Origin: Clostridiaceae bacterium
Lineage (GTDB): Bacteria; Bacillota; Clostridia; Clostridiales; Clostridiaceae
DNA: 64,000 bases
NCBI GenBank assembly: GCA_014380625.1
Contig: JACMJL010000338.1
Span: forward strand, 1 to 64,000
Direction: 5' to 3'
Shown here: positions 5,231-26,527 of the stretch, in pieces
How the letters are laid out: every line of letters starts with the position of its first letter
Numbering within the stretch: position 1 is the stretch's first letter
Program-made: the position numbers and the translations under genes
The notes under the pieces: generated by a model
The model's database searches: none
What the model saw: the letters and a program-made list of their open reading frames with translations, nothing else
What the model was told of the DNA's origin: nothing

Positions 5231-6394
5231 TCAGTCTATATCAGAATTAAAAACTATTTCCCCATCTATAACTGTTAACTTTACCTTTGCCATAATATCC
5301 AGTGCATATTTATCTAGTACCACTATATCTGCATCATAGCCTTCCTTTAATTTTCCAATTCTATCAGCACAGCCCATCATCTCTGCAGGGTTTTCTGTAA
5401 TGCATCTAATACTATCTAATGGATTTAATCCTTCTGAAGTAGCTAGTATAGCAACAGATCTGAGTTGATCTATTGAATTGTATGGGTGGTCAGTAATTAA
5501 TGCTACTTTAATGCCGCCTTCAACTAATTTAAGCGCAGAACTATAGTTTCTTTTTATTAATTCCATTTTTATTCTAGGTGTCAACATTGGACCAAAGGCG
5601 ACTGGAACTTTTCTTTCTTTTAAATAATCCATTACCAAATGTGCCTCTGTTCCATGTTCAATTACAAGTTTCTCTATGTTAAACTCTTCTGCTATCCTTA
5701 TGGCAGTAATAATGTCATCCGCCCTATGTGCATGTGCACGAAGGTAGATATCACCATTTAATAAAGGTATTACCGCCTCAAGTTTCATATTTCTTTCCTT
5801 TAGTTTTCCATTGTTCTTATTTTCAATATAGTCTTGTGTACGGAGAAATAAATCTCTTATAAGTGCTGCAGTAGCCATTCTAGTGATGGGACATTTACCT
5901 TGTGTACCGTAGGTGCTTATAGGTTCTTCCCCAAAGGATACTTTAAGTCCTAAAGGATTCTTCAAAATCATCTTGTCAATGATACTACCAGCAGTTTTTA
6001 TGGCAACATTTAATCCTCCTACTGCATTATGGCTTCCCGGTCCACTCATTACACAGGTAATTCCATGGCGTACGGCATCCTTAAAAGCCATATCCATTGG
6101 ATTTATACCATCTATAGCCCTAAGCTCTGGCATTACAGGATTTGAATCCTCATTGTTATCCATTCCAAGCTTACCAGTACCTTCTTCAATAATTCCCATG
6201 TGCGTATGGCAATCTATTAACCCTGGATAAACATAACACTCCTTAATATCAATAATCTTTATATCCTCAGCCCTATACTCAATGTTCTCAGTTATACTTT
6301 TAATTTTACCATTTTCTATTAATAGGTCCTTCTTAGTAATATTACCATTTGAAATATCTGTGTGTAATCCATTTTTTAATAGTATGTTTTTCAA
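5231..6394 (-). CDS. Amidohydrolase family protein (imidazolonepropionase-like)
   Basis: VYPGLIDCHTHMG metal-binding motif, RAHAHRADDI, TDHPYNS, GKLKEGYDADIVVLD. Confidence 0.88.
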   Translation of the reverse strand: MKNILLKNGLHTDISNGNITKKDLLIENGKIKSITENIEYRAEDIKIIDIKECYVYPGLIDCHTHMGIIEEGTGKLGMDNNEDSNPVMPELRAIDGINPMDMAFKDAVRHGITCVMSGPGSHNAVGGLNVAIKTAGSIIDKMILKNPLGLKVSFGEEPISTYGTQGKCPITRMATAALIRDLFLRTQDYIENKNNGKLKERNMKLEAVIPLLNGDIYLRAHAHRADDIITAIRIAEEFNIEKLVIEHGTEAHLVMDYLKERKVPVAFGPMLTPRIKMELIKRNYSSALKLVEGGIKVALITDHPYNSIDQLRSVAILATSEGLNPLDSIRCITENPAEMMGCADRIGKLKEGYDADIVVLDKYALDIMAKVKLTVIDGEIVFNSDID

Positions 6395-24583: not shown

Positions 24584-24612
24584 TTGACAAGCTTACTAGG
24601 ATATATTAAAAT
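24584..24612 (+). promoter_or_regulatory. Sigma-A-type promoter
   Basis: TTGACA (24584-24589), 17-nt spacer, TAAAAT (24607-24612). Confidence 0.7.
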
Positions 24613-24618
24613 CTAAAA

Positions 24619-24740
24619 GTAAGTAAAAATGAATAGGTGACAGTTCGTAACCATCCTGTCGTTAAATAAAACTAGGAAAGTCCACTTTTTAAGAGTGGTC
24701 TATTTTCTATGTAAAGACAGAGATGATCTGTCTTTTTTGT
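24619..24740 (+). ncRNA. Candidate cis-regulatory structured leader with intrinsic terminator
   Basis: Stem GACAG/CUGUC (24639-24643/24656-24660); stem UAGGAAA/UUUUCUA (24673-24679/24703-24709) with inner CCACU/AGUGG; terminator AAGACAG-AGATGAT-CTGTCTTTTTT (24714-24738). Confidence 0.55.
24714..24738 (+). terminator. Intrinsic terminator 5' of a coding gene (attenuator)
   Basis: AAGACAG AGATGAT CTGTCTT TTTT, about 33 nt before the ATG at 24771. Confidence 0.75.
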
Positions 24741-24770
24741 TTTTTGAAAAGAGGTCTTAGGGGGTAAATT

Positions 24771-25772
24771 ATGAAAAGAATCGGAATAACTACTACAGTA
24801 CCTATAGAGGTTTTAATAGCAGCAGGTTATGAGGTAGTGGATTTAAATAATATTTTTGTTTGTTCTAAAGATTATTTAAGATACATTGATAAAGCTGAAA
24901 AAGAAGGTTTCCCCAAAAGCTGCTGTGCCTGGAAGAAAGCCATGTATAGTGTGGTTTTAGAGGAAGGAATAGAGGAAATAGTAGGAGTAACTGAAGGGGA
25001 TTGTTCAAACACGAAGGCTCTTGAAGAAGTACTTTCTATGAAGGGCATAAAGGTTTATCCTTTTTCATACCCTCAAAGTCAAAAGCTAGAAGATATTCAG
25101 AAATCTATTGATGAATTTATGAAATTATTTAATGTCACAATCAAAGAAGTTGAAGAAGTAAGAGATAGATTAAATGCTGTAAGGGCTTCAATAATTAGAC
25201 TAGATGAACTTACCTATAAAGAGGGTAAGACTAGTGGCTTTGAAAACCATCTTTATCAAGTAAGTGCTAGTGACTTTAACTCCAATGTGGATAATTTTCA
25301 AAGTGAAATAATTGAAAAAATTCATGAAATAGAATTGAGAACTTCTAATTTTAATGGATTAAAAATAGGATATATCGGGGTACCACCTATGACAGTGGAC
25401 ATCTATGATTTTGTAGAAAAATTTGATGCAGATATTATTTATAATGAAGTTCAAAGGGAATTTTCTTTTCCTAGATTTAAAGCTGCTAAAAGTATTTATG
25501 AACAATACAAAGATTATACTTATCCCTATAACATTAACTTTAGGCTAAAAGAAATACAAAAACAAATTAAGGAAAGAGATTTAGATGGACTAATTCACTA
25601 TACTCAAGCCTTTTGTTATAAACAAATAGAGGACATTGTCATTAAAAATCATATAAAAATTCCTATATTAACCATTGAAGGTGATAAGCTAAATTATCTT
25701 GATGCTAGGACCAAGTTAAGACTTGAGGCCTTTTTAGATATGGTTAAGGACTTAAAGGAGATGAAATCATGA
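24771..25772 (+). CDS. 2-hydroxyacyl-CoA dehydratase D-component / double-cubane-cluster-like protein
   Basis: HgdB-like fold features and Cys motifs (SCCAWKKAM, EGDCSN, QAFCYKQ); coupled to a BadF/HgdC-type activase. Confidence 0.75.
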   Translation: MKRIGITTTVPIEVLIAAGYEVVDLNNIFVCSKDYLRYIDKAEKEGFPKSCCAWKKAMYSVVLEEGIEEIVGVTEGDCSNTKALEEVLSMKGIKVYPFSYPQSQKLEDIQKSIDEFMKLFNVTIKEVEEVRDRLNAVRASIIRLDELTYKEGKTSGFENHLYQVSASDFNSNVDNFQSEIIEKIHEIELRTSNFNGLKIGYIGVPPMTVDIYDFVEKFDADIIYNEVQREFSFPRFKAAKSIYEQYKDYTYPYNINFRLKEIQKQIKERDLDGLIHYTQAFCYKQIEDIVIKNHIKIPILTIEGDKLNYLDARTKLRLEAFLDMVKDLKEMKS

Positions 25773-26527
25773 GAATTTTAGGTATAGACTTAGGTAGCAG
25801 AGAGGTTAAGTTAATACTAATGGAGGACAATAAATTAGTAGAAAAAAGTAAATTTAGCACAATGACTTTTTACAGAGACTATTGTAATCATGGCGAAAAG
25901 TTAGAGGTTAATCTTAAAAAATTAGGTATAGAGAATATAGATAAAGCAATTTCAACGGGTTATGGAAGAAATAATACTAATTTAAATTATTTCAAAGCAA
26001 TTAATGAACTTAAAGCTCACGTGTATGGAGTTTTTTATCAGACAGGCCTAAAAGATTTCATTTTATTGGATGTTGGTGGTCAAGATGTTAAGGTTGTTAA
26101 GGTGGAAAAAGGAATAATTACAGATTTGGAATTGAATGAAAAGTGCGCAGCCTCTTGTGGAAGATATCTTGAAAATATGGCTAATGTATTAGAGATTTCT
26201 TTAGATAGGATGTTTCAGTATTATAAAGATCCCATAGAACTTAATTCCACTTGTGCAGTATTTTCTGAATCAGAGCTTATTGGAAAGATTGCTGAAGGTG
26301 TTTCCATGGAAAGACTTTGTTCAGGAGTAAACTATTCATTGTACAAAAGACTTCAGCCCCTTCTAAATAAGTTTCAAGGAAATAAATTAGTGGTGGCTGG
26401 TGGTGTTGCAAGGAATTTAGCATTAAATGCCTTACTTTTAAATGACTACAAAGAAATAATTCAGTTAGAAGAGCCTCAGTTTAATGGGGCAATTGGTTGT
26501 GGTTTTTATGGAGAAAGGATTGGATAA
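25769..26527 (+). CDS. BadF/BadG/BcrA/HgdC-type ATP-dependent activator (reductase)
   Basis: ILGIDLGSREVKLILM, ATSGYGR-type STGYGRNN, LDVGGQDVKVVKV, EKCAASCGRYLENMA, VVAGGVARN. Confidence 0.9.
   Translation: MRILGIDLGSREVKLILMEDNKLVEKSKFSTMTFYRDYCNHGEKLEVNLKKLGIENIDKAISTGYGRNNTNLNYFKAINELKAHVYGVFYQTGLKDFILLDVGGQDVKVVKVEKGIITDLELNEKCAASCGRYLENMANVLEISLDRMFQYYKDPIELNSTCAVFSESELIGKIAEGVSMERLCSGVNYSLYKRLQPLLNKFQGNKLVVAGGVARNLALNALLLNDYKEIIQLEEPQFNGAIGCGFYGERIG

Follow-up and report, generated by a model that had tools for sequence, protein, structure and literature searches.

A divergent preQ1-I riboswitch upstream of a putative preQ0 reductase from the 2-hydroxyacyl-CoA dehydratase family

A leader RNA in a 64,000-nucleotide stretch of Clostridiaceae DNA (the window) very likely acts as a preQ1-I riboswitch controlling a gene pair that encodes an HgdB-like protein and an activase, and this pair would be a preQ0 reductase that replaces QueF in anaerobes; the ligand, the direction of switching and the reaction are those that we infer. 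QueC makes preQ0, 7-cyano-7-deazaguanine, and QueF, working with NADPH and a cysteine thioimide, makes preQ1, one of the components from which the tRNA base queuosine is built. To our knowledge, QueF is the sole enzyme assigned to the conversion of preQ0 to preQ1, and we know of no report of nitrile reduction for the HgdB-like protein family. The pair probably represents a second class of preQ0 reductase, found in anaerobes and unrelated to QueF, in which an ATP-dependent [4Fe-4S] enzyme from the family of benzoyl-CoA reductases and 2-hydroxyacyl-CoA dehydratases uses four electrons to turn a nitrile into a primary amine, under preQ1 feedback. We observe recognizable sequence families for both the RNA and the proteins, membership in que operons, a distribution exclusive with that of QueF, conserved cluster cysteines and a shared fold.

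The leader RNA and its riboswitch class

The features of the leader and of the two genes behind it are the following.

24584..24612, + strand: promoter-like hexamers TTGACA-N17-TAAAAT, agreeing with the consensus at 11 of 12 positions, which alone is not significant
24639..24643, + strand: 5′ strand (GACAG) of aptamer stem P1, aligned to RF00522 and invariant in the relatives found
24644..24655, + strand: aptamer loop UUCGUAACCAUC, placed by the RF00522 alignment, the type I hallmarks and relatives
24656..24660, + strand: 3′ strand (CUGUC) of P1, also used in the antiterminator with GACAG 24716-24720, from sequence and leader pairing analysis
24661..24676, + strand: A-rich L3 tail with the conserved CUA (C24672) and GG 24675-24676 of pseudoknot helix P2, from the RF00522 alignment and relatives
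24673..24709, + strand: middle hairpin UAGGAAA.CCACU/AGUGG.UUUUCUA of the expression platform, from sequence and folding
24713..24735, + strand: hairpin of the intrinsic terminator with a U tract behind it, from a terminator scan and homologous leaders
24771..25772, + strand: HgdB-like protein, 333 aa, HGD-D family, proposed catalytic subunit of an ATP-dependent preQ0 reductase, from profile, structure and orthologs
25769..26527, + strand: BcrAD/BadF-type ATPase of the acyl-CoA dehydratase activase family, proposed electron activator, from profile and adjacency

The original prediction, read from the letters alone, had named promoter hexamers, stems, a middle hairpin and a terminator in this leader, and all of these elements lie where it placed them. 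The hexamers TTGACA (24584-24589) and TAAAAT (24607-24612), with a 17 nt spacer, form the best promoter-like match of the region, but such matches occur at chance level in this AT-rich DNA (20 observed against 24.2 expected, and 6 on the window's + strand against 2-6 in shuffles). The foldable leader and clear intrinsic terminator both exceed chance. The leader at 24619-24741 folds with -29.2 kcal/mol against -19.7 kcal/mol for shuffles (z -3.2; 1 of 200 shuffles as good), and terminator-like sites number 4 against 1.3 expected; the letters directly 3′ of the terminator are TTTGTTTTTT. GACAG/CTGTC does occur twice, at 24639-24643/24656-24660 and 24716-24720/24728-24732, and the middle stem consists of TAGGAAA/TTTTCTA plus CCACT/AGTGG as described.

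Conservation indicates that the leader elements are more than chance, because the pattern GACAGTTCN{3,9}ATCCTGTC was found in 131 of 197 genomes of the same family and its reversed control in 0. The relatives are near letter-for-letter alike and read GACAG-UUC-N(3-9)-AUC-CUGUC-AUAAACAAAACUA-GG. Using a search upstream of the orthologous genes that allowed any 5-bp P1, we found the motif at 73 of 80 genes and, with one mismatch (TTT for TTC), at 2 more; 2 loci were cut off. The motif is thus present in 75 of the 78 assessable leaders of HgdB-like loci and absent at three loci with full upstream sequence (L119, L160 and L167, upstream of position 6001). P1 is GACAG/CUGUC in every relative found (leaders L101-L180), from Clostridium to Fusobacteriota, which leaves no P1 variation for covariation. 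Invariance without exception is unusual for a riboswitch stem.

At the gathering threshold, Rfam gave no match anywhere in the window; the known class PreQ1 emerges in a relaxed search. There, 24634-24681 aligns with RF00522 at 22.3 bits, with E 0.014 for the 241 nt searched, below the gathering score of 39 bits, and the alignment spans the whole model including the loop and the A-rich tail (positions 1-45 of 45, posterior 0.99). Orthologous leaders score 25-28 bits, all under the same cut-off. The other low-scoring matches, BTnc049, sau-63 and VrrA, are unrelated sRNAs at chance level. Three features define type I preQ1-I riboswitches, namely UU atop the 5′ strand of P1, UC ahead of its 3′ strand and, within the tail, a conserved C (PMC11625349), and we find each of these in the window (UU 24644-24645, UC 24654-24655, C24672) and likewise in the relatives. 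The loop opens with UU and C after P1 and contains the CC of P2 (24651-24652), which is able to form a short P2 with the GG of the tail (24675-24676), and C24655 is expected to form a Watson-Crick pair with preQ1. The RF00522 cut-off misses this clostridial subtype at L002, L003, L005-L007, L009, L011, L012, L014 and window:24634-24681.

The genomic placement of the RNA was also informative. The window's own genome contains a second copy (L031:7900) upstream of queC-queD-queE-folE2, and in QueF genomes the RNA precedes queT-queF (L069) or sits upstream of a queC-queF cluster. Its place before que genes therefore ties the RNA to preQ1 independently of the bit score. The original prediction had proposed an orphan riboswitch class, having excluded a list of known classes that left out preQ1. 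Because of its likeness to RF00522, the type I hallmarks and the position before queC, queT and queF genes, the leader is not an orphan but, as judged by sequence and context, a divergent representative of the riboswitches known to sense preQ1, of preQ1-I type I. A leader that senses some ligand other than preQ1, as the orphan proposal implied, would accord with the score under the gathering threshold and the unusually invariant P1, but it would have to account for the same RNA upstream of queC, queT and queF genes and for the retained hallmark positions, and we consider it very unlikely.

A terminator lies downstream of the aptamer in 65 of 66 homologous leaders. In 54 terminator-bearing leaders, CUGUC and the A-rich tail, which make up the 3′ part of the aptamer, can form a helix with a strand that shares positions with the terminator's 5′ arm. 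The original idea of a cis-acting attenuator of transcription, whose terminated and antiterminated folds exclude each other, was right in essence, and its pairing of the first-stem CUGUC with GACAG of the terminator arm generalizes to the leaders of these 54 relatives. Compared with shuffles, the antiterminator pairing has a median z of -2.0 across leaders and only -1.2 in the window itself, which is not strong. We propose that 24639-24735 would be a transcription-terminating preQ1-I (type I) riboswitch, with preQ1 as its putative ligand and the following putative direction of switching. When preQ1 is scarce, CUGUC and the A-rich tail would pair with a stretch running into the terminator's 5′ arm and the genes would be transcribed; when preQ1 is bound, the tail would be locked in an H-type pseudoknot, the terminator would form and transcription would stop. 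The sharing of CUGUC between two helices may be the reason for the invariance of P1.

Operon company and distribution against QueF

We collected 80 loci from genome records and found that the activase gene adjoins the HgdB-like gene in all 80 and that que genes lie beside the pair in 72. Near the HgdB-like gene, QueC is found in 64 loci, QueD in 60, QueE in 59, FolE in 40, QueT in 11 and QueF in 0. The commonest order is HGD-ACT-QueD-QueE-FolE-QueC (40 of 80 loci), and the loci include members of Clostridium, Caloramator, Tepidibacter, Ruminiclostridium, Halanaerobacter and Fusobacteriota. An example is the RefSeq operon of Ilyobacter polytropus, encoding a 2-hydroxyacyl-CoA dehydratase, an acyl-CoA dehydratase activase, queD, queE, folE and queC. 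In one genus, the hgd-act pair is split from queD-queE-folE-queC, with a separate riboswitch copy for each of the two parts (L038:6444 and L038:10070); the split arrangement is also seen in G141, G147, G150, G155 and G157.

The distribution of the HgdB-like gene is exclusive with that of QueF. Among 384 Clostridia, 126 genomes contain QueC, and 69 of these have the HgdB-like gene, 57 have QueF, 0 have both and 0 have neither. The 197 family genomes include 101 with strong QueC, divided into 57 HgdB-like and 44 QueF with 0 both and 0 neither, and 196 class-level genomes add 25 new QueC genomes (12 HgdB-like and 13 QueF) that follow the same rule. The raw Fisher p of 1e-29 is inflated because the genomes are related; stratified within genera holding both kinds, p is 1.5e-7. 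On a QueA tree of 60 of these genomes, well-supported branches show at least 6 exchanges between the HgdB-like gene and QueF and parsimony counts 9, with a sign test on supported pairs giving p 0.03. Three HgdB-like genomes are without detectable QueC (G159, G244 and G377), and in at least two of them the gene is cut by contig ends. Separately, we observed QueF without QueC in 13 genomes (e.g. G034, G038, G039, G268 and G287), which suggests uptake of preQ0 rather than synthesis.

The other enzymes of the pathway are accounted for. QueA is nearly universal, TGT is found in 30 of 31, and QueG or QueH accompany the HgdB-like pair: QueH occurs in 14 of the 58 family genomes with the HgdB-like protein, and most of the others, including the window's genome, which is 81% complete, have QueG above cut-off. 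With QueA, TGT and QueG/QueH all present, the only uncovered step is therefore the conversion of preQ0 to preQ1. The preQ1 riboswitch and the que operon context would equally suit an enzyme acting at another queuosine step, either an epoxyqueuosine reductase or a queuine-salvage enzyme, and several Q steps rely on Fe-S enzymes. Replacement of the epoxyqueuosine reductases QueG/QueH was rejected because both coexist with the pair, and the salvage role was set aside since it leaves unexplained why genomes with de novo synthesis (QueC) alternate strictly between the pair and QueF. Action at another step appears unlikely. The pair could also skip preQ0 and act on an earlier intermediate, 7-carboxy- or 7-amido-7-deazaguanine, to reach preQ1 otherwise. 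The genomic evidence for this bypass is identical, as genomics does not fix the substrate; however, all but three HgdB-like genomes retain QueC, often in the same operon, and we give the bypass little credence. The preferred reading, a preQ0 reductase, bears on how genomes are scored: queuosine pathway reconstructions demand QueF to count an organism as a producer (table in PMC6593275; methods of PMC11130926), and 69 of the 126 QueC genomes here would therefore score as incomplete.

The HgdB-like protein and its activase

The first gene product matches HGD-D (PF06050) at 96.8 bits against a cut-off of 28.4, and the second matches CoA_E_activ at 159 bits against a cut-off of 125.4. The description of the genes as an HgdB-like reductase pair was a good call, although the role in queuosine synthesis was missed. 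Orthologs of the HgdB-like protein form a group with 59-69% identity over the full length, set apart from paralogs with about 31% over long stretches, and phage records contained no ortholog. In one genome the match comes in two pieces (G246:C1:278727-279827; residues 1-170 and 171-329), perhaps through a frameshift or insertion.

Across 79 orthologs, Cys52, Cys78 and Cys282 never vary, and they align with the cysteines that hold the cluster in the solved relatives 3o3m and 6eno, predicting a [4Fe-4S] cluster. BzdO carries a three-cysteine [4Fe-4S]-OH2 site, and the double-cubane protein reduces acetylene, hydrazine and azide (PMC11971306). The predicted structure (pLDDT 83) has a fold matching the double-cubane protein (the best match, TM 0.77-0.79), 2-hydroxyisocaproyl-CoA dehydratase and benzoyl-CoA reductases. 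With only three invariant cysteines, one [4Fe-4S] cluster per subunit is suggested and not a double cubane. The protein has no homology to the T-fold of QueF (PF14489); since it belongs to the HGD-D family instead, it would be an analog of QueF and not a member.

RefSeq names the HgdB-like protein "2-hydroxyacyl-CoA dehydratase". Along with the Pfam name, this would support the chance gain of a preQ1 riboswitch by an ordinary enzyme, either a fermentative 2-hydroxyacyl-CoA dehydratase or a small-molecule reductase, a reading that we regard as exceedingly improbable. One catalytic gene lies beside the activase in the 80 loci, encoding a single 333-aa subunit instead of the A/B pair of two different catalytic subunits found in 2-hydroxyacyl-CoA dehydratases; the score to the double-cubane equivalog NF040772 is 46 bits, far under the cut-off of 350; and the que operons and the exclusive alternation with QueF argue against either activity. 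As a preQ0 reductase, the HgdB-like protein with its one [4Fe-4S] site and the ATP-driven activator would reduce the nitrile of preQ0 to the aminomethyl group of preQ1. The activase would pass electrons singly to the [4Fe-4S] site, and the nitrile would presumably be reduced via an imine. With the pair yielding preQ1 and the RNA sensing it, the system would therefore operate by end-product feedback.

If true, the pair fills the gap between preQ0 and preQ1 and adds a second biological route from nitrile to amine, a branch of a radical enzyme family gains a physiological substrate, and the Rfam threshold is shown to miss a preQ1 riboswitch subtype common in Clostridiaceae. In the open-licence literature we found no paper joining preQ1, preQ0 or queuosine with the HgdB-like enzyme family.

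Two other regions of the window drew our attention. A SigI-type sigma factor gene (window:30134-31634) scores 194 bits to the SigI subfamily model (cut-off 244) and overlaps the next gene, an apparent anti-sigma partner. On the minus strand, window:19844-24385 encodes a response regulator, a histidine kinase and a two-gene ABC exporter, resembling antimicrobial-peptide sensing systems.

Comparison with known systems

The RNA is a divergent subtype of a known class, and the enzyme would be a QueF analog whose family is not known to reduce nitriles. The leader resembles type I preQ1-I riboswitches (RF00522) in its P1 stem, the UU/C of the loop, the UC before the 3′ strand of P1, the A-rich L3, the conserved C of the tail, the GG that is pairable with the loop CC, and its position upstream of que genes. 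It differs from RF00522 in its scores of 22-28 bits (cut-off 39), a tail that is 2-3 nt longer and a P1 that is invariantly GACAG/CUGUC. The type I examples in PMC11625349 control translation, whereas the leader here has a transcription terminator as its platform.

On the protein side, the pair shares with QueF (PF14489) the predicted reaction, the position in the pathway, the operon partners and the riboswitch; however, its fold is unrelated and it would rely on an Fe-S cluster together with an ATP-driven activator. The 2-hydroxyisocaproyl-CoA dehydratase HadBC/HadI and the class I benzoyl-CoA reductases have the same fold, the three cluster cysteines and a BcrAD/BadF-type activator, in contrast to which the pair has a single 333-aa catalytic protein, lies in a que operon and has no second catalytic subunit gene adjoining. 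The double-cubane proteins DCCP/DCCP-R give the best structural match and likewise have a single catalytic gene, an activator and, as predicted for the pair, ATP-dependent reduction of small molecules, but identity is about 20%, the score is 46 bits against a 350-bit cut-off and only three cysteines are invariant.
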